IMG/VR virus record: IMGVR_UViG_3300023435_000020
Location: 1-52,315 of that record
Source of the DNA: a virus
Direction: 5' to 3' (one strand)
DNA length: 52,315 nucleotides
The notes beneath the pieces were generated by a model. The model searched no databases and was not told the origin of the DNA. It was given only the letters and a program-made list of their open reading frames with translations. Positions 222-42,226 of this stretch are shown here, one piece after another. Made by a program: the position numbers and the translations under genes. Position 1 is the stretch's first letter. The number at the start of each line of letters is the position of its first letter.

Positions 222-409
222 GACGGCGGCGGGGCACTGACGATTAGGTTGGCGACACATAGCAACGTGACACCGATCCCAGCAAGGGCGAGCAGAGTCA
301 ACACAACGGTTTCCGCCCAGTGCATCTTGGTGCGGCCGCATTCCATGATCCGTTCGACGTATCGAAAGATGGTGTAGCAGGCTATGATGATCCCAATACT
401 GGCGAGCAT
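215..409 (-). CDS. small two-helix membrane protein
   Basis: 64 residues starting at ATG 409, chosen because AAGGAGA lies 8-9 bases upstream; longer upstream extensions would run deep into the recombinase gene. Two hydrophobic helices are visible, roughly residues 2-16 and 34-56, separated by a basic, polar loop. The length and topology are holin-like, and the gene lies tail-to-tail with the lysin-like fragment, overlapping it by 7 bases. However it is transcribed in the opposite direction and together with the recombinase, which argues against a simple lysis pair. The start overlaps the recombinase 3' end by 28 bases. Function unknown. Confidence 0.55.
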   Translation of the reverse strand: MLASIGIIIACYTIFRYVERIMECGRTKMHWAETVVLTLLALAGIGVTLLCVANLIVSAPPPSY

Positions 410-984
410 GACGATTCTTCTCCTTGCTTCCGTGTATTGTCTGCCGCTGCAAGCGGGTCGTGCGCATCCATCACGGCGTGCACGACCCGCTTGTCCGCCT
501 GGACATACATTCGTGTAGTTTCGAGACATTCGTGGCCCGCCTGCGCTTGGGCAGCAAACACGTTGAATCGGGCCATTTCTGTAATACAATACCTGCGCCC
601 GGAGTGGGATGTCAATTTGATTCCGACGTTGCTGGCCGCGCGTTGTAGAGATCGTGCGAGGGTTGTGCTCGTGTAGGGCGTGCCATTCCGGGAGACAAAC
701 AGGTTGTCGTTTGGCACGTCCATTGCTTCGCGCGCCGCAAGGTATTGGATCAACACCGTTGCGACCGTCTCCGGAAACGCGACAACACGCGGCTTGTGTG
801 TCTTGGACGTTCGCACCGTGATCTCTTTGCAGTCCAGGTCAATGTCGGCTATGCGCAGTCCGCTCGCTTCGGAGATTCGGAGTCCAACACCGAACAGCAA
901 TGCAGCCACGGTCCAATCGCGCAGGGGGCGATAGCGCGTCGTGCTCTTCTGCTCGCTCTGGATGTGGGCGAATAGCCGCCCCAC
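382..984 (-). CDS. tyrosine recombinase, catalytic domain only
   Basis: 200 residues from a GTG start; an in-frame stop just upstream prevents extension. The catalytic set of the tyrosine recombinase family is present: Arg in GLRISEASGL, HxxR in SHSGRR, a later His in GHE, and the Tyr nucleophile in TTRMYV. Such enzymes cut and rejoin DNA through a 3'-phosphotyrosine link. The usual N-terminal SAM-like core-binding domain (about 90-100 residues) is absent, so this is either a minimal recombinase, a decayed integrase, or the distal part of a gene interrupted by a frameshift. The upstream HTH gene overlaps it by about 146 bases in another frame. A complete second integrase lies at 14160-15062, so this copy may act in resolution instead of integration, or be vestigial. 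Confidence 0.8.
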   Translation of the reverse strand: MGRLFAHIQSEQKSTTRYRPLRDWTVAALLFGVGLRISEASGLRIADIDLDCKEITVRTSKTHKPRVVAFPETVATVLIQYLAAREAMDVPNDNLFVSRNGTPYTSTTLARSLQRAASNVGIKLTSHSGRRYCITEMARFNVFAAQAQAGHECLETTRMYVQADKRVVHAVMDAHDPLAAADNTRKQGEESSCSPVLGSS

Positions 985-1243
985 ATGCGGTCTGGATCAG
1001 GTCCTCGCTTGCGACAACTTCGTCATTCACATTACCGGCCAGTTGAAATAGCCGCTGGGTTTGATCTGGTGACAGATCGAAACCACGGGCGAACCTCGCG
1101 TTGATCTTGGACGACGGAACATGCCCCTGTAGCATCCGGCTGATATACGCCTCGGAAATGCCCGTCTGAGATGCCGCCTGTGCCAACCCTACCGGCCTGG
1201 TAACGTCGCGGATGAATTGCGCGTATTCCTCTGAGATTGCCAC
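839..1243 (-). CDS. XRE-family HTH regulator
   Basis: 134 residues from GTG 1243, preferred because AAAGGAGG lies about 11 bases upstream; an ATG at 1276 with GAGGT upstream is an alternative giving 145 residues. A lambda-repressor-type helix-turn-helix is visible near residues 20-45 (LAQAASQTGISEAYISRML). The last 50 or so residues are rich in Arg, Pro and Ala, look random, and are read out of frame over the recombinase start. Either the natural protein is shorter, or a frameshift has altered this end. It sits next to a divergent promoter region with a palindrome at 1344-1354, the arrangement expected of an autoregulated phage repressor or Cro-like protein. Confidence 0.65.
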   Translation of the reverse strand: MAISEEYAQFIRDVTRPVGLAQAASQTGISEAYISRMLQGHVPSSKINARFARGFDLSPDQTQRLFQLAGNVNDEVVASEDLIQTACGAAIRPHPERAEEHDALSPPARLDRGCIAVRCWTPNLRSERTAHSRH

Positions 1244-1320
1244 GATTATCTTCCCACCTCCTTTCCCTGTCAGCATTCTAGTTACCTCTGTTGCCCTCTG
1301 TTGTCGCTCTAAACCACACT

Positions 1321-5651: not shown

Positions 5652-7658
5652 ATGGTTGACCTGGAGGGACTGAACACACAGCAGTTGGAGGCCGTGAATC
5701 ACGGGCGCGGGCCGTGCCTCGTGTTGGCAACCGCGGGTTCGGGCAAGACTCGTGTTTTGACACTACGCGCGGGGCGGCTGATCGAGGATGGTTATGTAGA
5801 TCCCACGCGATTGCTGCTCGCGACATTCACGCGCAAAGCCGCCGACGAGATGCGGTCGCGACTCAAGACGTTCATCGGCGAGGAGGCGGACCGGGCGTGG
5901 ATCGGCACGTTTCACTCGCACTGCCTGCGCATACTCAAGATCACGTATCACGAGCTCGGATACCCGACGTTCGAAACGCTGGCGCCCGGACAGGCGATAC
6001 GGCTGGCGCGGGACATTCTCGGGCCGCGCGATGCAAAACACACCTACGCGATGGAATGGGATACCGACCCGAAGGCCGTGCTGTCGACGATATCCCGCGC
6101 GAAAGCAGATCTGGTCGATGTCGATATTTGCGAGCCCTACTTCGAACGGCTCGGGCTATTGCCGATTGTCGATCGCACAATTGATTTCTGGCACAGGTAC
6201 GAAGACCAGAAGCGGCAACGCCGATTGCTCGACTTCGACGACTTTCTGCTTCGAACGCATCAACTGATGGCAAAGCAGCCGGAGGTCTTGGATCGATGGC
6301 AATCGTCGTTCGACTTCATCCTCGAGGACGAGGTGCAGGACACGATGATAGCCCAACATGCCATAGTCACGGCGCTCGCGGCCGGGCACCGGAACTACTT
6401 TGCCGTCGGGGATGCAAATCAGTCGATCTACGGGTTCCGCGGGTCGGCGCCGGATCTGACTGTGCTGTCGTTCCAGAAGCAGTATCCGGACGGCGTGATT
6501 ATCAAGTTGCCGAAGAACTATCGGTCGCAAGCGGAGATCGTCGACGCGGGCGCCAGTCTGATCCAGTGCAATCCGATGTCGGCAAACTACAGCCTGGAGC
6601 CCAACGCCCATCGACCCGCCGGCGACGACCCCGTGGTGATCGAATCGGTCGACGAGGACGAAGAGGCCGAGCACGCCGCCGACATAATACGGCATCATCG
6701 GTCTATCGGGGTGAAGTATGGAGACATCGCTATACTCTACCGCACGAACGCGCAGTCGCGGGCTCTCGAGGACGCGATGGTCAGACACGACATCCCCTAC
6801 ATCGTCTACGGCAGTTGTGGGTTCTACTCGCGCCGAGAGATCATGGATCTGCTTGCGTATCTCCAGCTTGCACACGATGCGAATTGCCCGGTCGGTGATG
6901 ACGCCCTGAAGCGGGTTATCAATGTTGCGTCGATCTGGTTCGGCACTCGCAACGGCATGCCTAAGACCACGCACTTTCTCGGGCGGGCTTTCCTGGATGA
7001 ACTGAAGCGCACCGCGAAAGCGTCCGGTTGTTCGATGTCCCAAGCGCTCAGTGCCGGCATGTGGAAGCCCTGGCAATCGGATGGGGTAGATGATTGTCTT
7101 GATATCGTCAGCAGCGTTCGACACGCCGGGCCGAGGCCGGTGCAGATGATACAGAAGGCGCGGGGGATTGCCTACGATGCGTATTTGGCGCGCGAAGAGG
7201 GCGCCGCGGACAACGACAACGAGGGCACCCGATCCGACAACCTCGACGAACTGGAGCGCGCCGCGGACGGATTCAGCAATGTTGCGGCGTTCCTAGCGTT
7301 CGTCGAGAAACAGCAGTCCAAGGCGAAGAAGCCGAAGAAAGATGAGGATTGCGTGCAACTGCTCACGCTGCACCGCGCAAAGGGTCTTGAGTGGCCGATA
7401 GTCTTCCTTTCCGGTGTCGCGCACGGCTTATTGCCTCACAAACGCTCTCTGCGCTATCTGGACGCGCTCAAGCGCATTGTGGACCCGGCGTCGATCGAGG
7501 AAGAGCGGCGGCTTTGTTACGTCGGCATCACTCGCGCGATGGACAACCTGTATGTGTCGCGACTGCTCACCCGGAACGGGCAGGAGATGCCGCTATCGAC
7601 GTTTCTTGTCGAAGCCGGCGTGGTCGATGAAAAGGAACTCTTGCAGGAGGTTAGTTGA
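5652..7658 (+). CDS. UvrD/Rep/PcrA-type superfamily 1 helicase
   Basis: 668 residues. All SF1A motifs can be read: Walker A ATAGSGKT (26-33), Ia (LLATFTRKAADEMRSRL), Ib (GTFHSHCLRIL), a motif II variant ILEDEVQDT in place of the usual VDE(F/Y)QDT, motif III (GDANQSIYGFRGS), IV (KLPKNYRSQAEIV), V (LLTLHRAKGLEWPIVF) and VI (RRLCYVGITRAMDNLYVS). The family unwinds DNA 3' to 5' with ATP. An acidic Asn/Asp-rich insertion lies before motif V. It sits between the annealase block and the replication initiator, so it probably serves phage replication or recombination. TGATG overlap links it to the next gene. Confidence 0.95.
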   Translation: MVDLEGLNTQQLEAVNHGRGPCLVLATAGSGKTRVLTLRAGRLIEDGYVDPTRLLLATFTRKAADEMRSRLKTFIGEEADRAWIGTFHSHCLRILKITYHELGYPTFETLAPGQAIRLARDILGPRDAKHTYAMEWDTDPKAVLSTISRAKADLVDVDICEPYFERLGLLPIVDRTIDFWHRYEDQKRQRRLLDFDDFLLRTHQLMAKQPEVLDRWQSSFDFILEDEVQDTMIAQHAIVTALAAGHRNYFAVGDANQSIYGFRGSAPDLTVLSFQKQYPDGVIIKLPKNYRSQAEIVDAGASLIQCNPMSANYSLEPNAHRPAGDDPVVIESVDEDEEAEHAADIIRHHRSIGVKYGDIAILYRTNAQSRALEDAMVRHDIPYIVYGSCGFYSRREIMDLLAYLQLAHDANCPVGDDALKRVINVASIWFGTRNGMPKTTHFLGRAFLDELKRTAKASGCSMSQALSAGMWKPWQSDGVDDCLDIVSSVRHAGPRPVQMIQKARGIAYDAYLAREEGAADNDNEGTRSDNLDELERAADGFSNVAAFLAFVEKQQSKAKKPKKDEDCVQLLTLHRAKGLEWPIVFLSGVAHGLLPHKRSLRYLDALKRIVDPASIEEERRLCYVGITRAMDNLYVSRLLTRNGQEMPLSTFLVEAGVVDEKELLQEVS

Positions 7659-8569
7659 TGGCCAGGATACGCACGATCCACCCATCGGTGTGGGACGATG
7701 AGGATGTCGGCTCGTTTTCGGATGGCGCTTTCCGCGCACTCATCGTGCTTATCTCAAACGCCGACGACGAAGGCCGGGTGCAAGCGTCGGCTCGATATGT
7801 GCGGGGTATCGCGTGGAGATATCAGGAAAATTACTTGATAGCGACGGTGCAAGCACACATCGAAGAGGTAGATAAGGGAATGCGGAGTTTCGTCCGGTAC
7901 GTCGTGGACGGCCGTGAATACGCGGTGTTCTTGAAGTATCGTGACTGGCAGACACCAAAGAAACCCCAGCCCTCCAAGCTGCCTCCCCCTCCTGCCGCCG
8001 CAATAGAATCTAAGCGGGAACTAGTGAAGAACCGGTGTGGTACCAGTGGGTTACCAGTGGCGGACGACGGCGGAACCGTTGTGTTACCAGTTCCCCCAGG
8101 GTTACCCATTGGTGTGGAAAAGGTAACCACAAGTAGAAGTAAAGTAAAGCATGTAGAAGATATAGAAGGGAAGGGTGTGGGAAGGGATTCGGAGGAACTG
8201 TTCCCTCTTGCATGCACCATTAACGCAAGTATACGTCAGTGTTTCGAGGTTCTATCCGACATCAAGGGTTATCCCTACGACGCGCAGAAGGACGGAGATC
8301 ACATCGGAAAGCTCATGGCTGAGTTCCCGAATGCAGATCCCGTCAAGGTCTGTCGCGACTTCGCAACTTACGTGCTCGACAAACCCTTGAAGAAAAAAGC
8401 GAACCCACGCCTGCAACTACGGCGCTTCTTTAGCAACGCGAACGATTGGCATGTCCGGGACAATGGCAGTGGAACTCCCGTCGCATCAGCAGGTGCGGAT
8501 GAACCTCGCTACACCGATAGCGAGGATATGATAGCAGCCATAAGGGGGGCCACCGATGCCGACGAGTGA
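7658..8569 (+). CDS. phage replication initiator (Rep/replisome organiser)
   Basis: 303 residues from ATG 7658, overlapping the helicase stop. The N-terminus (MARIRTIHPSVWDDEDVGSF, then a winged-helix region with NADDEGRVQAS and a YAVFLKYRDWQ segment) follows the pattern of phage replication initiators such as those with DnaD-like or lambda O-like roles. Residues 127-172 are a low-complexity Gly/Val/Pro/Ser linker encoded by DNA carrying GGTTACC repeats. The C-terminal 90 residues form a helical domain (LQLRRFFSNANDW) likely to contact the helicase. It overlaps the DnaB-type gene by 14 bases, the usual initiator-helicase order. Confidence 0.8.
   Translation: MARIRTIHPSVWDDEDVGSFSDGAFRALIVLISNADDEGRVQASARYVRGIAWRYQENYLIATVQAHIEEVDKGMRSFVRYVVDGREYAVFLKYRDWQTPKKPQPSKLPPPPAAAIESKRELVKNRCGTSGLPVADDGGTVVLPVPPGLPIGVEKVTTSRSKVKHVEDIEGKGVGRDSEELFPLACTINASIRQCFEVLSDIKGYPYDAQKDGDHIGKLMAEFPNADPVKVCRDFATYVLDKPLKKKANPRLQLRRFFSNANDWHVRDNGSGTPVASAGADEPRYTDSEDMIAAIRGATDADE
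8039..8175 (+). other. candidate phage replication origin with iterons inside the initiator gene
   Basis: Repeats sharing a GGTTACC core: GGTACCAGTGG (8039-8049), GGTTACCAGTGG (8049-8060), TGTTACCAGTTCC (8082-8094), GGTTACCCATTGG (8100-8112) and an inverted GGTAACC (8122-8128). They are followed by a purine- and AT-rich tract at about 8129-8175. Iterons plus an AT-rich stretch in the middle of the initiator gene is the architecture of the lambda origin inside gene O. Confidence 0.6.
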
Positions 8570-13041: not shown

Positions 13042-13686
13042 ATGGGGCGAACAATTCAGGATGCCGAACGGATCAACGAGAAAGTGCGAGCACTGGCCAG
13101 GCGGGTCGTGGAACATCCCGACGACCCGGAAATCGAGCAAGAGTTGTCCGAACTGTGCACGATGCACGGCAGTTGGATTCGCGATCAATTCATCGACTAC
13201 CTGACCGCCGACGACCCCACGTCTTACCCCCAATCCCTACAGGATAAACTCAGGTCTTCGAACCGAACTGTGAGCCCCGAACTGGCGGGGATCTCGGGGC
13301 GCAACCGGATACCCATCCTCAGCCTCGATGCGATCGACGGCGGCAATCAGTATGTCGTGTCGGACGTGTTGGGCACGATCATCCAGTTGGTGCTGGCCGA
13401 CTACCATAGACTGCGCGCCGAAGCGCGATTGAGCGGCATCGAGTGGGATGTATGGTACTACTGGCTCAGGGGCTACCAGGTCGCAAAGATGGCCACCTGG
13501 CTCTGTAAACCCGATGGCCAACTCTACAGGCCCAATAGTGTGCGAAAGATACTGTATCGAGTGTGGGACAAGGTTCAGAAGACACCGTATCTTGCGATCG
13601 TGACCTGCCGCGCGGAGGATCAGACCCGCGGCAAGCATGCCAACCCACCCACGTATGTATCATGGAGCGAGATCACTGACTTGTAG
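13042..13686 (+). CDS. possible transcription regulator
   Basis: 214 residues; AAGGGGGG lies about 12 bases before ATG 13042. The N-terminal 60 residues are helical and charged. Residues 130-185 (WYYWLRGYQVAKMATWLC, then RPNSVRKILYRVWDKVQ) resemble a sigma region-4 or late-regulator helix-turn-helix. It is the last plus-strand gene of the early block and converges on the excisionase-like gene, overlapping it by 14 bases. A role as an early-to-late switch is possible but rests only on the helix pattern and position. Confidence 0.5.
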   Translation: MGRTIQDAERINEKVRALARRVVEHPDDPEIEQELSELCTMHGSWIRDQFIDYLTADDPTSYPQSLQDKLRSSNRTVSPELAGISGRNRIPILSLDAIDGGNQYVVSDVLGTIIQLVLADYHRLRAEARLSGIEWDVWYYWLRGYQVAKMATWLCKPDGQLYRPNSVRKILYRVWDKVQKTPYLAIVTCRAEDQTRGKHANPPTYVSWSEITDL

Positions 13687-14158
13687 GTTCTTCGACGGTC
13701 GCGTGTGTCTCGATCGTCGCGATGATCTCTTCGACCTGCCCGTCCGTCCAGGTTTCCGGCAGTTCCCCCTCCGGATACGGGACTAACCCCAAGCTCTTGA
13801 TGTAGTCCCAGCGGCCGCGATCGATTGTGATACCTGTCCGACGCTTTATCTCATCCATCACCTCGCTTCGGCGCCATAGTCCGGGTCGGCGCCACCGGAT
13901 CTTTCCGTTCCGCGGCGGCTTTATCTGCTGCGCAATACGTGCCATAATCATTTCCACCTCATCTAACGATAGCCGTGCCTCATACCGGTCTTTCCAACCG
14001 GGCTCGGGTTCGGGCACGATGCCGAGTTGCTGCAAATACCGATATCGGCGCGGCGTGCAATCCCAGCCGAACCGCCGGGTAATTTCCTCCCGGATGTCTC
14101 GCACTCGCCAATAGAGACGCACCCCGAACTGGTTTACCCGCTCGTGAGCTTCAATCAT
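13673..14158 (-). CDS. tandem MerR-like winged-helix protein, candidate excisionase
   Basis: 161 residues from ATG 14158, one base after the integrase stop. The protein contains two similar halves: RVRDIREEITRRFGWDCTPR with RYLQQLGIVPEPEPG and LSLDEVEMIMARI, then RRSEVMDEIKRRTGITIDRG with YIKSLGLVPYPEG and WTDGQVEEIIATI. Each has a helix-turn-helix plus a wing ending in LG(I/L)VP, as in MerR-type DNA-binding domains. Small winged-helix proteins encoded next to integrases are commonly excisionases (recombination directionality factors), and a duplicated domain would suit binding to adjacent att arm sites. This role is inferred. Confidence 0.6.
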   Translation of the reverse strand: MIEAHERVNQFGVRLYWRVRDIREEITRRFGWDCTPRRYRYLQQLGIVPEPEPGWKDRYEARLSLDEVEMIMARIAQQIKPPRNGKIRWRRPGLWRRSEVMDEIKRRTGITIDRGRWDYIKSLGLVPYPEGELPETWTDGQVEEIIATIETHATVEEPTSQ

Positions 14159-14159: not shown

Positions 14160-15062
14160 TCAGAACTCCACGTAGTTGGCCGCGGAACTGTCGAGATCTT
14201 CGCGCGCCCGGTTGTAGCGCTCGGTCGTGCGCGGGTCGGCATGCCCGAGCCAACGCTGAACTGTGTAGATATCGCACCCGCGGCGCAAAAGCTCGGTCGC
14301 GTTGAAATGCCTCAAACTGTGCGGGCTACAACCCTCGATTCCAACTGCATCGAACCGCTGCGTGACGACGTGGTAGATCCCGCGCGTGCCGATCGCCCGC
14401 CCAGTTAGATGATACCCACCGTTGTGTGTGATGCCCTGGAAAACCGGGCAATCATCGCGGAACTGCGCCGCGGCGATCCACTTGCGAACGGACGCGAGCA
14501 CCTTGCTGGGAATCGGGTTGCGTCGACGCTTCGCGCCCTTGCCGTGGATCGTCAAGACCGTGTAGCCCTGATCCTCTGTTATATCCGACAACCGGACACG
14601 GGCGACCTCCTCACATCGCAAGCCCATTGCGGCCATGAGGTGAATCATCGCCCGGTCGCGCATGTCGGGAAGCGTGTCGCCCGAAAGGGATTCAAGCAGC
14701 GTTCCGAACTGCTGAAAACTCGGGGCTTTCGTCGAACTGCCCGACCCGTCGGACTTATGCCCACGGATACCCTCCGTAGGGTTATGTGATATCACACCGT
14801 GCCGGACCGCTTCGACGAACAATTGCCGAAGCGAACTGAGCTTCCGGTTCACACTGGCAGGCGCAAACTGCTCGACCAGATGGGCGCGAAAGCGGTAGAT
14901 GTCCTCCCGCCGAACCGCGGGAAGATCGTCGGACCCAAGCCAGTCAAGGAACTGCCGGATATCCGACCGGTAGGCGCGGGCGGTGTGGCCGGACAATTGC
15001 CCGGCCAACCAATCCGCGGTGAATGTCACGGGCCGAACGTCGGCCCTGCGTGCAAGCTCCAT
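14160..15062 (-). CDS. int: tyrosine integrase (XerC/D-like)
   Basis: 300 residues. ATG 15062 is chosen because the conserved leader with CGGAGGA lies just upstream; longer frames run into the operator. An N-terminal SAM-like core-binding domain (LSGHTARAYRSDIRQFLDWL) is followed by the catalytic domain with Arg in GLRCEEVARVRL, Lys in GKGAKRRRNP, HSLRH, GHADPRT and the Tyr of TTERYNRA. It should integrate and excise the phage genome at att sites. The candidate excisionase follows immediately. A TTGTAC palindrome at 15087-15106 lies 25 bases upstream and probably controls it. No att core could be recognised without a genome end or host sequence to compare. Confidence 0.95.
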   Translation of the reverse strand: MELARRADVRPVTFTADWLAGQLSGHTARAYRSDIRQFLDWLGSDDLPAVRREDIYRFRAHLVEQFAPASVNRKLSSLRQLFVEAVRHGVISHNPTEGIRGHKSDGSGSSTKAPSFQQFGTLLESLSGDTLPDMRDRAMIHLMAAMGLRCEEVARVRLSDITEDQGYTVLTIHGKGAKRRRNPIPSKVLASVRKWIAAAQFRDDCPVFQGITHNGGYHLTGRAIGTRGIYHVVTQRFDAVGIEGCSPHSLRHFNATELLRRGCDIYTVQRWLGHADPRTTERYNRAREDLDSSAANYVEF

Positions 15063-15066
15063 GTGT

Positions 15067-15082
15067 TCCTCCGTTCGTGTGT
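15067..15082 (-). repeat. conserved leader copy before the integrase
   Basis: Minus-strand ACACACGAACGGAGGAA, a one-base variant of the shared leader; it includes the integrase ribosome site. Confidence 0.7.
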
Positions 15083-15086
15083 GAGA

Positions 15087-15106
15087 TTGTACCGTCGGCA
15101 GTACAA
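15087..15106 (-). promoter_or_regulatory. TTGTAC palindromic operator upstream of the integrase
   Basis: TTGTACCGTCGGCAGTACAA has 8-base near-perfect arms (TTGTACyG/CrGTACAA) around 4 bases. Read on the minus strand it ends in TACAAT, a good -10 hexamer, about 25 bases before the start codon. A nearly identical copy lies at 18916-18935. Confidence 0.6.
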
Positions 15107-15108
15107 CC

Positions 15109-15450
15109 TTACCTTCTGCCCGCCAGGGCGATAACTGCCTTGACGATCCCCTCCGCGTCATCCGGCGCGTTGGGTCCGTCCATGACCTCATCAACTGATA
15201 CCGCGGCATCCTTCACGCCGCACCCAAACAGGTTAGCGATACCCTGAACTGCCGTACGGCGTTCGGTCGGGTCTATCGTCGGGGCAAGCTCAACTTCCGG
15301 CCCCTCGATAACCTCGAATACCTCATCGGAGTCGGTTTGCACCCGCGCCATGCGCGCGTTGTATTGCCGACTCATCACTTCCAGGGCGATAGCGGCCAAC
15401 ACGACCACTATCCACCCTGCGCACCCTATCAACGCTGTAAATAATATCAT
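15109..15450 (-). CDS. membrane-anchored hypothetical protein
   Basis: 113 residues from ATG 15450 with GGGAGG about 6 bases upstream. Residues 2-24 (a stretch with LIGCAGWIVVVLAAIALEV) form one transmembrane helix near the N-terminus; the remainder is a soluble, acidic cytoplasmic or periplasmic tail without cysteines. It is coupled to the preceding gene by a 4-base ATGA overlap and ends just before the integrase operator. Function unknown. Confidence 0.6.
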   Translation of the reverse strand: MILFTALIGCAGWIVVVLAAIALEVMSRQYNARMARVQTDSDEVFEVIEGPEVELAPTIDPTERRTAVQGIANLFGCGVKDAAVSVDEVMDGPNAPDDAEGIVKAVIALAGRR

Positions 15451-15929
15451 GCCCCACCTCCCTCCGCACCCTCCGCAGGGCGTTCCTTGTCAGTCGCTAT
15501 CCGGCACCATTTCCGCCGTAGTGCATCACAAAAGGCGTACGCCTCACTGGTAGGCCATTCGTCGTGTTCACAGCTCTGGTATTCGTACTTGCCAATGAGA
15601 TCGAACACCATGCCCGGTGTCAAATCTTGGCGGCTGTCGAACTCGAACCCGTATACAAAGTCCTCGCCAATCGGACCGGGCATATCATCGCGCGTGCAAT
15701 CAGGATAGCGATAGAGCACGCTTTTAATGTTCTCTTCCCGGAGCATTTGTCCGAGAGTGGTCGCGGCCTCCATGTCGCCGTCGTGAAGGCTGTTACTGTC
15801 ATACGTTCCCGCGCCACGGTCGATGTTCCAGAGCCAGCGCAGTGCCGCGCTATACGTCCGGCCAGACGAACTCAAAGCCGCCCTAACCAGTGTGTGAATG
15901 TCCTCGCGGTCTACTACATAAGCACTCAT
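15447..15929 (-). CDS. conserved accessory protein of mobile elements
   Basis: 160 residues from ATG 15929, where TGGAGGGTGAC gives a good ribosome site. The start MSAYVVDREDIHTLVRAAL and the segments GQMLREENIKSVLYRYPD and YEYQSCEHDEWPTSEAYAFC match, from memory, an uncharacterised family often found on plasmids and prophages. It contains a conserved Cys-Glu-His near the C-terminus that could bind metal. The biochemical role is not known to me. Overlaps with both neighbours suggest one transcript. Confidence 0.65.
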   Translation of the reverse strand: MSAYVVDREDIHTLVRAALSSSGRTYSAALRWLWNIDRGAGTYDSNSLHDGDMEAATTLGQMLREENIKSVLYRYPDCTRDDMPGPIGEDFVYGFEFDSRQDLTPGMVFDLIGKYEYQSCEHDEWPTSEAYAFCDALRRKWCRIATDKERPAEGAEGGGA

Positions 15930-16075
15930 GTCACCCTCCAATCTCTGACTAAATCTCTGATCGTGTCCGCGGCAACGGACGCACACCATGCGATAACCGC
16001 GACTCCTGCGACTATGCACAGGATATTAGTGTAACACTCGATGCGCAAGAGTTCATTTGCGATATGTAGGCTCAT
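15926..16075 (-). CDS. 49-residue membrane protein
   Basis: ATG 16075 lies one base after the sliding-clamp stop codon and the stop at 15926-15928 overlaps the next start as ATGA. The translation begins MSLHIANELLRIECY, continues with a single hydrophobic helix of about 18 residues (NILCIVAGVAVIAWCASVAA) and ends in a charged amphipathic tail. Tight packing on both sides is the main support. Role unknown. Confidence 0.5.
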   Translation of the reverse strand: MSLHIANELLRIECYTNILCIVAGVAVIAWCASVAADTIRDLVRDWRVT

Positions 16076-16076
16076 C

Positions 16077-17576
16077 TTATCCTGCCTCTTGCATGGGCAT
16101 CACGACCGCGAGGTAACCCGGCGCGGATTCGCACGTGACGCTTGCCTGTGAGTACTTGCCCATGAGGTGTAGGTCGGCGGCCGGTGCGTCCTTGACCGGT
16201 CGAAGCGCATCCAACATATACCGGGCGTTGAATGCCAAACTGTCAATGCCCGAACCGGCAAGCACCTTCACCGGTTGCGTGCTTGCGCCAAGTCTTCCCG
16301 ATTCGGCACTCAAGATAAGCTCATCTTCGCGCCGCGTGTATTTGACGCGCCTGGAATCCTCGCCCGCGACCGTATCGAGGTTTTCGAGTGCGGCAATAAG
16401 TTCCGCGGGCCGGACCCGCCAGCATCCGGCGGCAAGTGCACGGTCTGGTATCACCTTATCCACGTTCGGGAACATGCCGTCGATTATGCGCGTGGTCAAC
16501 TCCATGCCGTGCGCCACGAACGTGATAGTGGTCGGCACATCCGAATCGCTCAGTGATGAGAAGTGGATGCCGACCTCATCGTCTTCCTTGACCGCAAGCG
16601 CCTTTGCCAGTTTCGTGAGCGGGAACCCGGGTACTATCACCTGCAAATCCTTCGGGCAGTCCGGGAATACTATGTCCGCGCCAATCAGATCGCATACATG
16701 CACTCGGTGGGCATCCGTTGTGACAAGCCGCATGCCCGGCATGTCGAAGAATACGCCTGTGAGGATTGGGCGCGATTCATCGGGCGATACGGCGGGTAGG
16801 ACCTGCTTCAAGGCCGCCACAAGGCCCGGGAACCGGCCCGTGTCGCCAACTGCGTGCGGATGCTTTACGAACTCCTCCGCAAGCATACCAAGCAGGGAAT
16901 GACGCGCGCCGCCAACTGATACGGTTACCTCGGGCACGCTTCTATCCGGGTCCTGGTATGACGCGATTGTAACCGTGCCGGACTGCTTCCGAAGGATCTT
17001 CGCTAACTCTTTGGCAGGCACGCACACAGGTTCAAACGAGCTTGCCGCACAGGGTATCCGCACGGTCGCGAACTGCTCTAAATCCGTCCGTGACATAACG
17101 AGTTCATCGCCGTCGACGGACAGGTGCACGCTATCGAGTATCGGCAGGTTTGTGCGACCGGTTGCGACTACGGCGTTAAGGCGTGACATGGCGTCGGCAA
17201 TGGTCTTTGCGTGCACGGATACGCCTACCTCGGGGGCATCCAACTCCGACACGTCAAGCGTCTTGCTGGTAGATCGGCGCGCGGGCTTGTCCGGTTCGGT
17301 CGCCAACTGCCGGACCCGGGGCAGTGCTGAAAGCGGAATCCCCAGCAATTCGGCGGCCATGCGGTCGCGTGTCCGTGTCGGGGCCGTCCTTACGGCGAAT
17401 AGAGCCCGCCGGTAGGTTCGGCACATACTGTGCACGAACAATGCCGCGCAGTATGCCATGCGCTTCGACGCCCGCGCAGGGGCCGCGAGTATCCACGCGT
17501 GGATTGCTAGAATCCACTGATACGAAAGTGCGAACTCACATCTCAAGATTGCTTCCGATTGTCTCAACTGTACCAT
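16077..17576 (-). CDS. DNA sliding clamp (DnaN-like) with N-terminal extension
   Basis: 499 residues from ATG 17576, set by the conserved leader immediately upstream. The clamp proper starts near residue 119 (VHAKTIADAMSRLNAVV) and continues through LPILDSVHLSV, MSRTDLEQFATVRI, TTDAHRVHVCDL and the C-terminal GYLAVVMPMQ, matching three clamp domains of the beta-clamp family. Clamps encircle DNA and hold polymerases on it. The first 118 residues are an unusual addition with a hydrophobic run (YQWILAIHAWILAAPA) and a basic linker. A second, shorter clamp is encoded on the other strand at 24716-25849. Whether the extension tethers the ring or is a start-site artefact is open. Confidence 0.85.
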   Translation of the reverse strand: MVQLRQSEAILRCEFALSYQWILAIHAWILAAPARASKRMAYCAALFVHSMCRTYRRALFAVRTAPTRTRDRMAAELLGIPLSALPRVRQLATEPDKPARRSTSKTLDVSELDAPEVGVSVHAKTIADAMSRLNAVVATGRTNLPILDSVHLSVDGDELVMSRTDLEQFATVRIPCAASSFEPVCVPAKELAKILRKQSGTVTIASYQDPDRSVPEVTVSVGGARHSLLGMLAEEFVKHPHAVGDTGRFPGLVAALKQVLPAVSPDESRPILTGVFFDMPGMRLVTTDAHRVHVCDLIGADIVFPDCPKDLQVIVPGFPLTKLAKALAVKEDDEVGIHFSSLSDSDVPTTITFVAHGMELTTRIIDGMFPNVDKVIPDRALAAGCWRVRPAELIAALENLDTVAGEDSRRVKYTRREDELILSAESGRLGASTQPVKVLAGSGIDSLAFNARYMLDALRPVKDAPAADLHLMGKYSQASVTCESAPGYLAVVMPMQEAG

Positions 17577-17580
17577 TTGA

Positions 17581-17597
17581 ATCCTCCGTTTGTGTGT
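17581..17597 (-). repeat. conserved leader copy before the sliding clamp
   Basis: Minus-strand ACACACAAACGGAGGAT. This 17-base sequence, including the Shine-Dalgarno GGAGG, is repeated almost unchanged before the starts at 18560, 18888, 19400, 19944 and 20189, with variants before 15062, 1826 and 4512. The upstream ACACACAAAC part has no role in base pairing with 16S rRNA, so the conservation suggests a shared 5'-leader function or recent spread of the leader. Confidence 0.75.
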
Positions 17598-17641
17598 TTG
17601 GCACGCTTTCAAACGCGGCGCGCGCCGGGCCGAAACCGCTT

Positions 17642-17992
17642 CTAGTAGTGGCCTATAGCGTACCAATCGCCGTCTTCATCTTGGGCCGCGCGCCCTTCCG
17701 CGGCATCCGCTTCAAGTTCGTCGGGGCTTGACCCTTCCATATCATAATCGTGCACCTCCGCGGGTATATCGAAGGGGTTGTCAACGCCCTGGACTACCCC
17801 GCCTTGCACCGTTATGACGACACGCGCGTTATCGACCTCCCCGCCGCCTTTCGCTTCGTTCGCGGCAAGTCGAAGGTCGTTAACTGCCCCAGCGAGATCG
17901 CCGGATTCCCAGTTAAGCAGGACCCCGTCCGCCGCTTCTATCAACGCGGCCAATCGTGCATCGGGGTTGTTGGATACGTTTTGCTGATTCAT
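17642..17992 (-). CDS. conserved small accessory protein
   Basis: 116 residues. ATG 17992 (MNQQNV) is preferred since AAAGGAG lies 7 bases before it; an ATG two codons earlier is too close to the ribosome site. The first half is helical (DARLAALIEAADGVLLNWESG), and the second half has a strand pair VVITVQGGVVQGV followed by an acidic DYDMEG turn, a pattern I recall from small plasmid and phage proteins. The C-terminus is very acidic. No catalytic motif. Confidence 0.6.
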   Translation of the reverse strand: MNQQNVSNNPDARLAALIEAADGVLLNWESGDLAGAVNDLRLAANEAKGGGEVDNARVVITVQGGVVQGVDNPFDIPAEVHDYDMEGSSPDELEADAAEGRAAQDEDGDWYAIGHY

Positions 17993-18005
17993 GCTCATGC
18001 TCCTT

Positions 18006-18560
18006 TCAAGCAAACTGAACGGTTCGGTAGTCAATCCCGAACTGATCTTTGACATGTGCGAGTGCGGCGACCTTGATATCGACCATGCAAAGGTCGCGCT
18101 TGTCCGCCGTCTCGAAGAAGTTGTAACGTTCGGCCTGCTCGTGCGCCCAACGGTTTGCTTTGATAGAGTCGAACACGTATTCCGAACTGCAAAGGTATTC
18201 GACCTCGCGCCGAACTGCCTTCTCGAAGCACGCCCAGGCGTTCAACTGTACCCCATCCCAGTCCGACACTTCGGGCAACCCCTCAACAATCAGCCAACCG
18301 TCGGAACTGCCCGCCGAATAGACCTTGCCGTCGGGCAGGTAGTGAGTCGCGGTTTCCTGTATATCGCGCCAGAAGTGCTCACAGGATGCTTCAATCGCAA
18401 GTTCCCCTGCCCGTTCCGCGGCCTTCTCACTACATCCGAACTGCGCCATGATATCCTGCGCGGTCGGGAACCGATTGACCTTGACGTTCACCGCTGGGAA
18501 TGCATGCCCGCCGTATCCGACACGGTGATAATCGACATTCGACTTCGTGTGACCCTTCAT
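18006..18560 (-). CDS. hypothetical accessory protein
   Basis: 184 residues from ATG 18560, directly preceded by the conserved leader. The N-terminus is His/Gly-rich (KSNVDYHRVGYGGHAFP). The central and C-terminal parts are helical with conserved-looking Trp, Cys and Glu residues (AIEASCEHFWRDIQE, WLIVEGLPEVSDWDG, NRWAHEQAERYNFFE). It reads as a real, structured protein but no family was recognised. It is the third gene downstream of the promoter-proximal group in this leftward block. Confidence 0.6.
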   Translation of the reverse strand: MKGHTKSNVDYHRVGYGGHAFPAVNVKVNRFPTAQDIMAQFGCSEKAAERAGELAIEASCEHFWRDIQETATHYLPDGKVYSAGSSDGWLIVEGLPEVSDWDGVQLNAWACFEKAVRREVEYLCSSEYVFDSIKANRWAHEQAERYNFFETADKRDLCMVDIKVAALAHVKDQFGIDYRTVQFA

Positions 18561-18566
18561 ACTGAT

Positions 18567-18583
18567 ATCCTCCGTTTGTGTGT
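18567..18583 (-). repeat. conserved leader copy
   Basis: Minus-strand ACACACAAACGGAGGAT, the ribosome-site leader for the start at 18560. Confidence 0.7.
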
Positions 18584-18594
18584 GTTCGTACTTA

Positions 18595-18888
18595 CTAAAG
18601 GTCTTTCTTGCGCGCAACGTCCGAAGCGGTCGCGTGATATTCGATGCCGGTCCGGTCGGCCCATTGCCACATTGCCTCATGCCCGCCGTTTGGATACTCT
18701 TCAAGGTCGGCAAGATATCCGTTCGCCAGTAACCATGCAGTTGCACTTTGGACGTATTGGTTATCGTATCCATAGGACATTGGCACAGTGTGCACGAGCT
18801 TGCCGTCGATGAGTATGCCGCACGTATGATAGGTGTTCCCGTATGTCCTATCAAACCACCTCCGACCGATAATCGTGAGTGCTTTCAT
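18595..18888 (-). CDS. conserved small accessory protein (GRRWF family)
   Basis: 97 residues from ATG 18888, 8 bases after the leader's GGAGG. The sequence ALTIIGRRWFDRTYGNTYHT, then VPMSYGYDNQYVQSATAWLL, reads like a small conserved protein family that I have seen annotated as hypothetical on plasmids and prophages. It probably folds as an alpha/beta domain with two strands at the N-terminus. No active-site signature. A TTGTAC palindrome lies about 28 bases upstream and is the likely control site for this gene and those downstream. Confidence 0.65.
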   Translation of the reverse strand: MKALTIIGRRWFDRTYGNTYHTCGILIDGKLVHTVPMSYGYDNQYVQSATAWLLANGYLADLEEYPNGGHEAMWQWADRTGIEYHATASDVARKKDL

Positions 18889-18896
18889 CGTTTCAA

Positions 18897-18914
18897 ATCC
18901 TCCGTTTTGTGATG
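18897..18914 (-). repeat. conserved leader variant
   Basis: Minus-strand CATCACAAAACGGAGGAT: the GGAGGAT part is kept but the ACACA part is altered. It precedes the start at 18888. Confidence 0.6.
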
Positions 18915-18915
18915 A

Positions 18916-18935
18916 TTGTACCGTTGGCAGTACAA
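18916..18935 (-). promoter_or_regulatory. TTGTAC palindromic operator, second copy
   Basis: TTGTACCGTTGGCAGTACAA, differing from the integrase copy at 15087-15106 in one base. On the minus strand it contains TACAAT in -10 position relative to the gene starting at 18888. No good -35 hexamer is present, so expression may need an activator or be blocked by a repressor. Confidence 0.6.
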
Positions 18936-19010
18936 CCGGCGTCCTGGTAGCTACCAGCGTGCCATGCCCGTGCACGGTAGCATCCGCCATGCACGGACTC
19001 GCAAGCCGGA

Positions 19011-19400
19011 TTAACTGAAGTACGACTTGCCGCAATCCGCCGAACATACCAGTTGACCGTTGATATCCGGCTTGAATGTCGTACCGCACCATGCACACTC
19101 GCGCGGTTCCCGCCATGCGTTCGGGCATCCTGTTTCGTGACACTTCACACCATTGATGTAAAGCAATTCGCATTGATCGCATGTCCGTTCGGCAAGCAAT
19201 TCTGCGCCGTACGAAGTCAAGCTCATATAGTCGTGTTCGCACCCACACGAGTCACATGCCGGGTAGCAATCGGCTTCTGCCGAAGCGAACACTGATGACA
19301 CTTCTTCTAAATCGACTGTGATACCCTCGGGCAAGCAATCGGCATCCGCACAGTAGATCGCTCCGCCATAAGCTACTGCCTCAAAGTCAAACGCATGCAT
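19011..19400 (-). CDS. multi-zinc-ribbon protein
   Basis: 129 residues from ATG 19400 with the conserved leader. Cysteine pairs are dense: CDSCGCEH, CDQC, CHETGCPN, CAWCGTTF and CSADCGKSYF, enough for two or three zinc ribbons. The segment with ETGCPNAWREPRECAWCG is recognisable as a small conserved family of mobile elements. Zinc ribbons usually mediate nucleic acid or protein contacts; no enzyme motif is present. The N-terminal third (FEAVAYGGAIYCADADC) has its own cysteines. Confidence 0.7.
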   Translation of the reverse strand: MHAFDFEAVAYGGAIYCADADCLPEGITVDLEEVSSVFASAEADCYPACDSCGCEHDYMSLTSYGAELLAERTCDQCELLYINGVKCHETGCPNAWREPRECAWCGTTFKPDINGQLVCSADCGKSYFS

Positions 19401-19408
19401 TGTCTTGG

Positions 19409-19425
19409 ATCCTCCGTTTGTGTGT
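19409..19425 (-). repeat. conserved leader copy
   Basis: Minus-strand ACACACAAACGGAGGAT preceding the start at 19400. Confidence 0.7.
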
Positions 19426-19447
19426 ATTAGGGCTTGATACCCTACCC

Positions 19448-19475
19448 TTGCCCGTTCGGGATTCCAAACGGGCAA
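19448..19475 (-). other. intercistronic hairpin
   Basis: TTGCCCGTT (19448-19456) pairs perfectly with AACGGGCAA (19467-19475) around a 10-base loop. It lies between the stop at 19486 and the next leader, without a U-run, so it may mark mRNA processing or partial termination between two leftward genes. A looser TGCCCG/CGGGCA pair occupies the next gap near 19990-20030. Confidence 0.5.
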
Positions 19476-19485
19476 TCGTAGACCA

Positions 19486-19944
19486 TCATGCCTTGAATAT
19501 GCGCGCGCGAAGTTCCGTTGATTGCGGGCACTCATTCCCGATAACAGACGGCGGCAGTGAAAACGCTAGGGCGACGCCGCCCGTATCCGCATCGACTTGC
19601 CCAGGATAGCAAGGGGAACACAACGCGCCTCTAATGCGCCAGTCCGAAGCGGTTACCTGTATGTTGCCCGTGCCGTACGACACAATGGCACTGTATTCAG
19701 CCATGCTATTGTGCTCATACTTCTCGGTTTCTTGACACCACACGTGCCCAATCAGGAAAACAGGCGTATCATCTTCATACGTGCCAGTGTCTTCGATGCC
19801 TGGATTATCCCGCAGGTAATCTTCAAAGTGCATGTCAATCCCCGCGTCACACTCTTCGTGTATCCATGCCGCGTTCTGAATCGCGAATACACCGGTGGTA
19901 GGGATATCCGAATCAAGCGGTATCCCGTAGTGATTGCGTCTCAT
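19486..19944 (-). CDS. conserved accessory protein with CSPCYPGQ motif
   Basis: 152 residues from ATG 19944 with the conserved leader. The first half begins MRRNHYGIPLDSDIPTTGVF and is polar; the second half contains ALCSPCYPGQVDADTGG, a motif I recall from uncharacterised plasmid and phage proteins. A Cys in HVWCQETEKYEH could pair with the CxxC for metal binding. The short hydrophobic C-terminus may be structural. No function known. Confidence 0.65.
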   Translation of the reverse strand: MRRNHYGIPLDSDIPTTGVFAIQNAAWIHEECDAGIDMHFEDYLRDNPGIEDTGTYEDDTPVFLIGHVWCQETEKYEHNSMAEYSAIVSYGTGNIQVTASDWRIRGALCSPCYPGQVDADTGGVALAFSLPPSVIGNECPQSTELRARIFKA

Positions 19945-19952
19945 TATCGTGA

Positions 19953-19969
19953 ATCCTCCGTTTGTGTGT
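19953..19969 (-). repeat. conserved leader copy
   Basis: Minus-strand ACACACAAACGGAGGAT preceding the start at 19944. Confidence 0.7.
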
Positions 19970-20039
19970 ATTAGGCATAAATGCCTGCCCTTGCCCGCAC
20001 AACCCGCTTCCACGGCATCACACGGGCATTGACAGGGAT

Positions 20040-20189
20040 TCAGAGAGAGAACACAAGGAACCCTTCGCTTGAATTGTGCTTGGTTTCGATAAGCATGCCG
20101 TGCCGTCGATGCCATATCCCGCCAAAGTTCTCATGCCATGCAAGCGTCAAGGTCATACCAAAGGGTAGCGTGATGTATACGGGCATCAT
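20040..20189 (-). CDS. 49-residue protein, first gene of the leftward block
   Basis: Starts at ATG 20189 (or 20186, two ATGs in a row) right after the conserved leader and ends in TGA at 20040-20042. Translation begins MMPVYITLPFGMTLTLAWHE and continues with a Trp/His-rich stretch (NFGGIWHRRHGML) and a hydrophobic end. It is short, but the strong leader and its place as the first gene behind the promoter at 20265-20293 support it. Function unknown. Confidence 0.55.
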   Translation of the reverse strand: MMPVYITLPFGMTLTLAWHENFGGIWHRRHGMLIETKHNSSEGFLVFSL

Positions 20190-20192
20190 TCA

Positions 20193-20209
20193 ATCCTCCG
20201 TTTGTGTGT
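20193..20209 (-). repeat. conserved leader copy
   Basis: Minus-strand ACACACAAACGGAGGAT preceding the start at 20189; the first copy in the leftward operon. Confidence 0.7.
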
Positions 20210-20264
20210 CGATAAGCTCACTTGATGCCTTGCCTGCTGTCAAGTTATGCCATACCGTGACTGA

Positions 20265-20293
20265 ATACTACCATGCTTTTGTGGTGGTGTCAA
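20265..20293 (-). promoter_or_regulatory. strong leftward sigma-70-like promoter
   Basis: On the minus strand TTGACA (20288-20293) and TAGTAT (20265-20270) are spaced by 17 bases with TGG directly before the -10 box. It is 75 bases upstream of the first leftward gene and should drive the accessory, clamp and integrase block. Confidence 0.75.
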
Positions 20294-21059
20294 GCGGGTA
20301 GGAGAAGATTCTTGAAAAAGTTTCCCCATGCCCGGCATACCCTATTAGTACGCGACCGATTCCCGCGCGCCTACCCGCACGGCTGTACTGTCACCAAGCC
20401 GGACACGCACGGGATGAGACTGAATGAGGGTAGGGAATGAATCGACGTGAACCAGAGAGTGAGCGTAGTACTGCCGCCAGTGGGCTTGACGGCGCGCCTA
20501 CCCGCCTCTCGTGCACGCGCCAGCCTGCCCGCCGAAGCACTTCTGATAATATCCATTATCGGAAGCCGTGAGCACCCTGGGGCAAATCCCATGCCGAGCA
20601 CGCGTCGGGCACGGGCAGGTCAGCTCACAGTGCACCCTAATTCCGTGTGAAAAAGGGCGGGTTTCCCCCAATGCGGGTGGATTAGGCAGTGAGGTGCTAC
20701 GGTTCGTTACGGTTTTGCGGGGTTAGGCGTGACGGCGGGTGGATTCGGGCCGGATATTGTACTGTTGGCGGTACGTCGGGGGTGATTCCTGTACTGCCAC
20801 CGAGGATCGGGGCTTATTTGCGGCACAGGGGCGGGATTATGGGTGGGTTTCTGTACTGTTGGCGAGGATTCGTCACGGGTTGTAACGGTTCTTGCGGGTT
20901 AGGGGTAGCGGGGGTGTGTACCGGTGGCGAGGCGGGGTTTGGGGCCGTGCTACGGTTTGCTACTTTTTTCTTGGGAAAGGGGTTGCGTTGTCGTGGGTGG
21001 TTATGGTATAGTGTGGTGGTGCGTGTATGGGCAAGCGGGATCGGAACAGGAGGGTCCGG
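20294..21059. other. gene-free divergent control region with G-rich strand and TGTAC repeats
   Basis: About 770 bases without a convincing gene. The plus strand from about 20640 to 21030 is unusually G/T-rich. It holds degenerate copies of the operator: TTGTACTGTTGGCGGTAC (20757-20774), TGTACTGCCACCG (20790-20802), TGTACTGTTGGCG (20852-20864) and TGTACCGGTGGCG (20917-20929), plus AGTACTGCCGCC near 20467. Divergent operons start on both sides, so it is probably the main regulatory switch or an additional origin region. Confidence 0.55.
20983..21012 (+). promoter_or_regulatory. rightward promoter of the second plus-strand block
   Basis: TTGCGT at 20983-20988 and TATAGT at 21007-21012, spacer 18, with TGG before the -10 (extended -10 form TGGTATAGT). 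It lies about 45 bases before the ribosome site of the gene at 21060. Confidence 0.55.
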
Positions 21060-24143: not shown

Positions 24144-24719
24144 ATGACGGTGATTGAGGCGGCAAAGAGATCAGTAGGGCAGGCACGGTCTTTGCGGTTT
24201 TTCCGCGAGGTCGAACTCGGGGAACGCAGTCCGCGCGGGTTTGGACTTGCGTATCGGAAGATCGACAGCCTGAGTGTGATCTGTTGCCCGGTGCCGTTCA
24301 ACTGGATCGTGTGGCTTATCCGGGAGGCGTATTGGCACTTGTGGCGGGGTCCGCGCGGCGGGTTCGCGAGCGAACTTCGCAAACTGGCCACTAAGAAGGC
24401 GGACACTGCATACCGCGAGGGGTATCGTAACGCGATGAAAGAGATGGGCTTGCGAGATCTGACACCTGAGATAGTCGATGTCTGGGATGCGGATACCCGG
24501 ACGAAAGAAGGGCGGGCACACAAGTCAAAACAAGTCACCGCAATAACCGCCAGTCACCCGAACGTGATGAGGTTTGCGCACGAGATGTTGCTGACGAGAC
24601 ACAAGAACGGGTTCGTGCATATCAGGCATGCCGAGGCCGCTGTTGCGGCGGTGATCTATGAACTCGAACGGGCAAACGAGAAGCCGCCATTTGAGATACA
24701 GGAGGAGAATCAGGGATGA
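24144..24719 (+). CDS. probable membrane-associated protein
   Basis: 191 residues with GGGAGG about 6 bases before ATG 24144. Around residues 38-62 (YRKIDSLSVICCPVPFNWIV and WLIREAYWHLWRG) there is a hydrophobic, Trp-rich stretch typical of a small phage family with one reentrant or transmembrane helix. The C-terminal two thirds are soluble and helical with scattered His. ATGA overlap couples it to the clamp gene. No function can be assigned. Confidence 0.55.
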   Translation: MTVIEAAKRSVGQARSLRFFREVELGERSPRGFGLAYRKIDSLSVICCPVPFNWIVWLIREAYWHLWRGPRGGFASELRKLATKKADTAYREGYRNAMKEMGLRDLTPEIVDVWDADTRTKEGRAHKSKQVTAITASHPNVMRFAHEMLLTRHKNGFVHIRHAEAAVAAVIYELERANEKPPFEIQEENQG

Positions 24720-25849
24720 GCGTAACACTGAATGCGAGGACTTTGCACCGTTGCCTGAAGCGCGTAAACGTGCTGTTTCCAAGGATGTCCAGTCTGCCGG
24801 TTCTGGACCACGTGCTCTTGAGCACGGAAGGCGACTGCGATTTTGTTATGCGACGCACCGATCTGTCCGCGCAGGTCATGGGGCGGATACCGTGCAATGA
24901 GGTCAGCGGAACACTTGATCCGGTTTGCGTGCCCGCCGATATGCTCCGGCGGGTTATAGCGGGGCATAAGGGAGACGTCGAGATCGGCGCGGACGTGGAC
25001 AATGGCGTGGAACTGAAGATCGGGAGCATGCGGCATGTGTTGTATGGGCGCCCCGTTGATGAGTTTCCGAAATACGTGGATGCCGGGGATATGTCCGTTC
25101 GCTACAAGCACCTGATCCGCACCTTGAGGCCCGTTCTTGTGTCTATGTGCCCGCCCTGTGACAGCCGGGTGCTACTGAACGCAGTGCTGTTCGATTTCAA
25201 CAACGTGCAAGTACTATCGACCGACACACACCGACTGCACATGAACAGTCTCCACCCGAGAGAACAGCCTTCGGAGGCGTGGGGCGGGCGGCACGTCGTG
25301 CCGGGAGATGTGTGCCAGAATCTCGGGAGTGTGCTTGGTGTCAAGGATAACGATCCGGTCTGCATCACCATCGGCGAAAAGAAGCAGTTGGTGTCGTTCA
25401 GCGCGCCGAACTGGGAGGTCCTTACGCGATTGATCGAAGGCACATATCCAAATCCGGGCAAGGTGATCGAGGGCGTGATGCAGACGCCCGGACACTGGAT
25501 TGTCGATCCCTGCGAACTCACAGGTGCCTTGATGGGTCTGTCTGTGATCGCCCGCGGCAACAGCGATGGTGTCGAGTTTGTCGCAAAGGGCCAAAAGCTG
25601 ATACTGACTACGCGCTCACCAGTGTTCGGCGAAAGCGAGTGCGAGGTCGATCTGCTGGAAGCCGGCGGCATCGGCGAGGGCATGCGCACCAAGTTCAGCT
25701 ATAGGTATTTGCGGGATGCCATGCAACCGCTTCTGGGCAGCAAGCAGATCCGGATCTCGCTGAAAGGGAAGCAGGACCAGGCGTTTGTGACCGCGCCCGA
25801 GAACCGGGACTACATGGCGGTCGTGATGCCGATGCAGATAGCGGAGTGA
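24716..25849 (+). CDS. second DNA sliding clamp (DnaN-like)
   Basis: 377 residues, the normal length for a beta clamp. Clamp landmarks: LNARTLHRCLKRVN at the start, LPVLDHVLLSTEG, MRRTDLSAQVMGRIPC, STDTHRLHMNSL and the C-terminal YMAVVMPMQIAE. It is clearly homologous to the clamp core encoded at 16077-17576 but differs through most of its length and lacks the extension. The ring should load a polymerase, yet no polymerase or clamp loader is visible in the window, so it may recruit host Pol III or a polymerase gene lies outside. Confidence 0.85.
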   Translation: MSVTLNARTLHRCLKRVNVLFPRMSSLPVLDHVLLSTEGDCDFVMRRTDLSAQVMGRIPCNEVSGTLDPVCVPADMLRRVIAGHKGDVEIGADVDNGVELKIGSMRHVLYGRPVDEFPKYVDAGDMSVRYKHLIRTLRPVLVSMCPPCDSRVLLNAVLFDFNNVQVLSTDTHRLHMNSLHPREQPSEAWGGRHVVPGDVCQNLGSVLGVKDNDPVCITIGEKKQLVSFSAPNWEVLTRLIEGTYPNPGKVIEGVMQTPGHWIVDPCELTGALMGLSVIARGNSDGVEFVAKGQKLILTTRSPVFGESECEVDLLEAGGIGEGMRTKFSYRYLRDAMQPLLGSKQIRISLKGKQDQAFVTAPENRDYMAVVMPMQIAE

Positions 25850-41931: not shown

Positions 41932-42226
41932 CTGCGCCAAGGGCACACTGGGCGAACGGCTGGTGCAAACGGGCGTGCTTGAAATTGCGAGCGAAACTCC
42001 CGGACTGGACATGCTCGAAGGGCGCGTACCGGCACCGGTACAATACGACTCTTCGCAACCGACGAAGCAATATCAATGCCCGTTCTGCCAGGAGGTATTC
42101 GAACAGGCCGAAGGTCTGGTTCTGCACCTGGCGGACACGCATGTGGCGGCGGTCAACAAGGTCGCAACGGATATGGCGGCCGCAGAAGAAGTGCGCGCGA
42201 TGACAGGTGAAGGAGCTGCACTCTGA
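41786..42226 (+). CDS. second C2H2 zinc-finger protein
   Basis: 146 residues from ATG 41786, with AGGAGGT seven bases upstream. The N-terminus is extremely basic (GLADKKRKQKEEKPEHEP). The C-terminal zinc finger YQCPFCQEVFEQAEGLVLHL followed by DTH has CxxC and HxxxH ligands like eukaryotic-type fingers. A central segment (GASDVIDCAKGTLGERLVQT) has no recognisable motif. Together with the previous gene it suggests a small DNA- or protein-binding pair acting in head assembly; function inferred only from position. Confidence 0.6.
   Translation: MVGLADKKRKQKEEKPEHEPVLKMVQNVTRVPQSVGRGMLRPGASDVIDCAKGTLGERLVQTGVLEIASETPGLDMLEGRVPAPVQYDSSQPTKQYQCPFCQEVFEQAEGLVLHLADTHVAAVNKVATDMAAAEEVRAMTGEGAAL

Follow-up and report, generated by a model that had tools for sequence, protein, structure and literature searches.

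The viral record IMGVR_UViG_3300023435_000020 (52,315 bases, analysed over its whole length and called the window below) is a fragment of the longer genome of a temperate-type phage. In its leftward gene block (20.2 to 13.7 kb) the palindrome TTGTAC-N8-GTACAA recurs ahead of genes, and related copies lie in the gene-free gap in the centre of the window. A first-pass annotation had read these copies as the regulon of a single phage regulator, and we asked what the sites are and which protein might recognise them.

Two palindromes and six related copies

TTGTAC-N8-GTACAA occurs exactly twice in the window, at 15087-15106 and 18916-18935. When the spacer was allowed to vary from 4 to 10 bases, these two sites were still the only exact matches, and 100 dinucleotide shuffles gave none. 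The near-identical 20-base palindromes of the first-pass annotation were thus located where it had placed them, and each ends in TACAAT on the coding strand, as it had claimed. The likeness extends over 24 bases, GATTGTACCGT[C/T]GGCAGTACAACC, of which 23 are identical between site 1 (15085-15108, minus strand; GGTTGTACTGCCGACGGTACAATC on the coding strand) and site 2 (18914-18937, minus strand; GGTTGTACTGCCAACGGTACAATC on the coding strand). The degenerate palindrome TTGTACYGYYRRCRGTACAA describes both. Palindromes per se are frequent in the window, dozens of them with arms of at least 7; the unusual part is that one sequence recurs.

Both full sites lie in intergenic gaps of the leftward block, just upstream of start codons. 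The edge of the palindrome is 24 nucleotides from the start codon of an integrase gene at site 1 (15063-15086, gene at 15062) and 27 nucleotides from the start of a gene for a 97-residue protein at site 2 (18889-18915, gene at 18888), so that the "same distance" reported earlier holds only approximately.

The central gap contains six related sites, with cores at 20385, 20468, 20759, 20791, 20853 and 20918, every one on the plus strand. The four degenerate copies listed earlier (20757, 20790, 20852 and 20917) are real; the list was short by two half-sites of the same orientation, GTACTGTCACCA (20385-20396) and GTACTGCCGCCA (20468-20479). Both GTAC arms are kept only in TTGTACTGTTGGCGGTACGT (20757-20776, core at 20759). 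The remaining copies, GTACTGCCACCG (20791-20802), GTACTGTTGGCG (20853-20864) and GTACCGGTGGCG (20918-20929, one mismatch to the core), are half-sites as well, making five. Spacings between the last four copies are 32, 62 and 65, and the orientation is uniform.

To quantify this recurrence, we counted the core GTACYGYYRSCR. The gap (20250-21026) holds five exact matches and one with a single mismatch, compared to a mean of 0.013 exact matches and a maximum of 1 in shuffles of the region (n = 300). Window-wide there are seven exact matches, all of them in the leftward block or the central gap, compared to a shuffle mean of 0.37 and a maximum of 2 (n = 60). The core was defined after the sites had been seen, from the sites themselves, and these counts are therefore somewhat optimistic; the 24-base repeat and the spacing preference of GTAC do not depend on the choice of core in the same way. 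GTAC is rare in the window, with 55 occurrences vs 191 expected from base composition (0.29; 0.37 against a second-order expectation). Since CTAG is also strongly avoided (0.13 of the base-composition expectation over the whole window), this may be ordinary palindrome avoidance. GTAC-N8-GTAC nevertheless occurs as four pairs (15089, 18918, 20759 and 42026), with none at spacings 0-7 and 9. Random placement gives 0.058 GTAC pairs per spacing; four pairs then have P ~4e-7, a value uncorrected for the spacing having been chosen. Weakest of the four is the pair at 42026, which belongs to a doubtful fourth full site, GCGTACCGGCACCGGTACAA (42024-42043, plus strand), inside the open reading frame (ORF) 41651-42226 and ~165 nucleotides before the capsid-protease gene. 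It may be due to chance, because it lies within a coding ORF and one such pair fits the chance expectation. Recurrence against GTAC avoidance suggests selection on the sites. The sites, their recurrence, their orientation and their gene context are direct observations, and there is good statistical support for a single binding specificity common to the leftward block and the central gap.

A predicted phage-encoded regulator

We consider it moderately probable that the palindromes and the central half-sites are binding sites of one DNA-binding regulator encoded by the phage. This prediction draws on the recurrence far beyond chance, the conservation of the sites despite GTAC avoidance and the preferred spacing of 8. 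It draws equally on the position of the full sites before start codons, the shared orientation of the central copies and the core kept in the half-sites, and also on the motif being nearly absent elsewhere, in genomes as in other viral contigs, and on a plausible DNA-binding protein encoded in the unit that site 1 heads. From this pattern we infer that a protein binds the sites, that it represses rather than activates, and that it comes from the phage. As to the regulon proposed earlier, shared specificity and recurrence beyond chance bear it out, and chance-level matches in genomes (below) support indirectly that it is phage-borne; control of transcription starts by the sites is the less supported part, since they have no recognisable -35 element.

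Such a regulator would read GTACYG-N4-CRGTAC, binding either as a dimer or as a monomer with two domains. Each full site heads an internal unit of the leftward block, the first comprising the integrase and a tandem winged-helix protein and the second running from the 97-residue gene through a sliding clamp; bound there, the regulator would keep transcription from initiating at the start of the unit or from elongating through it. The six sites of the central gap, same-facing and mostly halves, have the leftward promoter on one side and the first rightward gene on the other, and several bound copies might jointly silence or license divergent transcription.

The likeliest regulator in the window would be the product of 13673-14158 (minus strand), the second gene after site 1 and directly downstream of the integrase gene; the protein would in that case regulate the unit that encodes it. 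This 161-residue protein has two tandem winged-helix-like repeats, 42% identical over 36 residues, and matches HTH_33 (4.4e-07, above the Pfam cut-off). Its fold matches include MerR chains at Z 3.5-5.3, with winged-helix proteins prominent and EF-hand proteins at similar scores. It is probably a tandem winged-helix protein and, by its location and weak fold evidence, the best candidate in the window for the regulator, or for an excisionase. The helix-turn-helix (HTH) protein at 839-1243, suggested earlier as a partner of the motif, is a poor candidate. Its ORF (839-1276, minus strand) matches an HTH family weakly and overlaps, in a different frame, a tyrosine-integrase catalytic domain at 382-984 (minus strand). 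Because of this overlap in different frames, 382-1276 looks like a single HTH-integrase gene whose two parts are separated by a frameshift (a sequencing error, decay or a programmed event), with the HTH ORF as its N-terminal part. This HTH-integrase is a second recombinase beside 14160-15062. We also tried 13042-13686 as a possible late activator, and its structure model (predicted local distance difference test score, pLDDT, 46) gained it no support.

Several observations weigh against this explanation. The structure model of 13673-14158 is of low confidence (mean pLDDT 66). Its relatives are not detectable and it has no sequence relation to any solved structure; with relatives undetected and a poor model, it is adjacency that ties it to the sites. 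Searches with the terminase, portal, clamp, integrase, 13673-14158 and 13042-13686 proteins returned only two overlapping near-identical contigs that fall short of the region and one distant relative, G003; no relative spanning the region turned up, hence there is no phylogenetic footprint. Most central copies retain one half only. The leftward block has a sigma-70-like promoter, TTGACA-17-TAGTAT, found by promoter scan at 20265-20293 (minus strand), and a weak promoter-like TTGCGT-18-TATAGT, read by eye and unflagged by the scan, precedes the first rightward gene (20983-21012, plus strand); the central sites overlap neither promoter core. At the full sites TACAAT is a good -10 hexamer, but at every one the best TTGACA match 15-19 nucleotides away reaches at most 3 of 6 positions, whereas the clear promoters (20265-20293 and a strong rightward TTGACA-17-TATATT at 1379-1408) match at 6 of 6 with 17 bp. 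With the -35 absent, no promoter is evident for the sites to control. We did not see a standard sigma-70 promoter there, and judging from the sequence the sites may accompany a promoter of another type or an activated promoter, or act on read-through transcription.

Alternative explanations for the sites

Among the alternatives, we weighed first an arrangement known from iteron plasmids, in which the central copies would serve as iterons or for partition and the palindromes, sharing their half-site, would be operators for autoregulation. Iteron origins do combine direct half-sites with full palindromes that share the half-site and act as autoregulatory operators, and the likeness here lies in just this combination. 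The same-facing array, with its roughly 32-bp multiples in a gene-free region, fits as well, and the distant relative G003, whose structural proteins are 37-54% identical to those of the window, carries a palindrome array in a gene-free stretch of ~1.4 kb between a D5/Prim-Pol helicase gene and a clamp operon. That array (L017, 10580-10790) consists of seven GTTCAC-N5-GTGAAC palindromes spaced 25-36 bp apart and may be an origin, which keeps an origin reading of the central array alive. Its sites differ from those of the window in sequence and spacing, however, and because the palindrome is a different one we did not count the array as conservation of the window sites. A core that one G003 site has in common with the window, ACTGTTGGCG, was dismissed as coincidence, as the other G003 sites do not keep it.

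The palindromes of the window, moreover, precede the integrase and the 97-residue gene rather than the initiator gene, and the central gap has no strongly AT-rich segment. The likelier origin repeats are of another sequence: the initiator gene (7655-8569) has repeats of its own, three copies of GTTACCAGT at 8040-8092, and purine-rich DNA comes after them in a layout that resembles the lambda O arrangement. On this analysis the phage origin probably lies within the initiator gene, with 8029-8186 as the candidate region. Since iteron-like repeats sit there, we regard an origin in the central gap as fairly unlikely. A related sequence, TTGTACCAGTGGTAAAC (minus strand), occurs at 1341-1408, between the HTH-integrase gene and the strong rightward promoter; it may be an autoregulatory site, because it has GTACCAGTGG in common with the initiator-gene repeats.

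The palindromes could instead act as RNA elements, folding in the leftward transcript 5' of a ribosome site and serving in processing, stability or translational control. Coding-strand RNA of the full sites forms stems of 10-11 bp (-14.4 and -12.7 kcal/mol) with loops CCGA and CCAA, and two asymmetric positions of the palindrome become G-U pairs. Both hairpins also lie just 5' of a leader or a close version of it: ACACAAACGGAGGA directly follows site 1 on the 3' side, and a diverged version, CACAAAACGGAGGA, follows the site at 18916. The energies, though, are ordinary compared to shuffles (z -1.6 and -0.6). The scan flagged no intrinsic terminator at 15087 or 18916, and the sequence has no T-run, so the palindromes are not intrinsic terminators. 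Furthermore, the five central half-sites retain the inner YG..CR positions without a second arm. Because they keep the core yet cannot form a hairpin, recognition as DNA is favoured and we consider a role in RNA unlikely. The leader itself, a shared ribosome-site module, precedes six leftward genes and deviates by one mismatch in one of these copies. Copies occur just before start codons at 1807 (two mismatches), 15067 (one), 17582, 18568, 19410, 19954 and 20194.

Distinctly unlikely, too, are middle or late promoters for a phage-modified RNA polymerase, in which TACAAT would be the -10 and the palindrome an activator site replacing the -35. GTACAAT is present on one side at all four GTAC-N8-GTAC sites, in three cases on the strand that codes for the next gene, and the leader comes a few bases after TACAAT. 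The palindrome overlaps the would-be -10, however, which is unusual for an activator; a T after GTACAA is partly expected by chance; the site at 20757 faces away from the rightward genes and that at 42024 is inside a gene.

Highly improbable, finally, is a host regulon whose boxes, those of a regulator such as LexA, the phage has borrowed: an integrase under a host stress regulator would be plausible, but when 84,980 bacterial and archaeal genomes were scanned with TTGTACYGYYRRCRGTACAA, 11 scattered matches came up where a simple estimate gives ~15 (34 bits over 257 Gb), the 11 genomes carry one to three looser sites each, and a LexA-type box before several host genes was rejected on these chance-level matches, which hold for the sampled genomes and make the regulon unlikely in the sampled taxa. 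A host search by portal profile found nothing in 788 genomes of two arbitrary phyla and is uninformative on the host. Pattern scans of viral contigs gave four loci, none with related proteins near the sites.

Known control systems and the organisation of the phage

The predicted regulator and its sites can be compared with known control systems, and the nearest functional parallel is the operator/stoperator system of L5-type phages. In cluster A mycobacteriophages (L5, TipsytheTRex), repressor sites are repeated, one-way relative to transcription and mostly promoter-less; they are 13-14 bp long and without dyad symmetry, each genome has 20-30 of them, and the repressor, a monomer, carries two DNA-binding domains in one chain (PMC9283540, PMC6550527). 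The parallel lies in the repeated one-way sites, with a monomeric two-domain repressor there; the candidate here, as said, lacks a relation to solved structures. The window has two 24-bp palindromes and about six central copies (~8 sites), and by symmetry and number its sites fall outside the L5 type. A more specific proposal is very unlikely: a single-chain regulator with a tandem pair of winged-helix domains, co-encoded with the integrase, would read the pseudo-palindrome as a monomer, and promoter-less intra-operon sites and the same-facing half-site array would amount to stoperator-like silencing that arose independently of the mycobacteriophage one.

Lambdoid CI and Cro bind related palindromic operators between divergent transcription units, and at distant sites. 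The window shares such a set of sites between divergent units with further sites at a distance, but we found no CI- or Cro-like gene beside the central gap, the promoter cores are not overlapped, and most of the central copies are half-sites. The arms TTGTA/TACAA also resemble GntR/FadR-type operators (AraR, and DgoR IR1, which contains TTGTAGTACAA; PMC12288454), where they are near-adjacent rather than 8 bp apart as here. None of the window ORFs scanned encodes a GntR protein, and a literature search for the exact arms returned only unrelated or differently spaced operators.

The rightward replication operon (~1.4 to 13.7 kb; exonuclease, RecT-like, helicase, initiator and DnaB genes) and the leftward block are followed from 21.0 kb by a rightward block with clamp, methyltransferase, terminase and capsid genes. 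Contig G001 is identical to the window where they overlap and extends 7.8 kb beyond its end. The first gene after site 1 encodes a tyrosine integrase (14160-15062, minus strand; Pfam Phage_integrase 3.5e-26, phrog_1 2.5e-48), and the first after site 2 (18595-18888, minus strand) belongs to a widespread phage family of unknown function (phrog_6246 9.7e-17, 176 phage records). The unit after site 2 includes a DNA polymerase sliding clamp with an N-terminal extension of ~120 residues (16077-17576, minus strand), and a second sliding clamp is encoded at 24716-25849 (plus strand), giving two in one phage. At 42207-45083 (plus strand), a 958-residue ORF matches a head maturation protease as well as a major head protein, making it a protease-capsid fusion. 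The window's most G+T-rich 330 bases (20690-21020, 73%) are non-coding and carry another family of repeats, TACGGTTYGYTACGGTT-like, at 20699, 20875 and 20952; the G-quadruplex potential at 20828 is not above the expectation from composition.

The control layout is of a familiar, ordinary phage kind; the phage itself is unstudied. If the predicted regulator is real, the sites would provide an uncultured temperate-type phage that has no studied close relative with a set of control sites and a short list of candidate regulators. They would also show that the leftward block is divided into separately controlled units, with the integrase in one of them.

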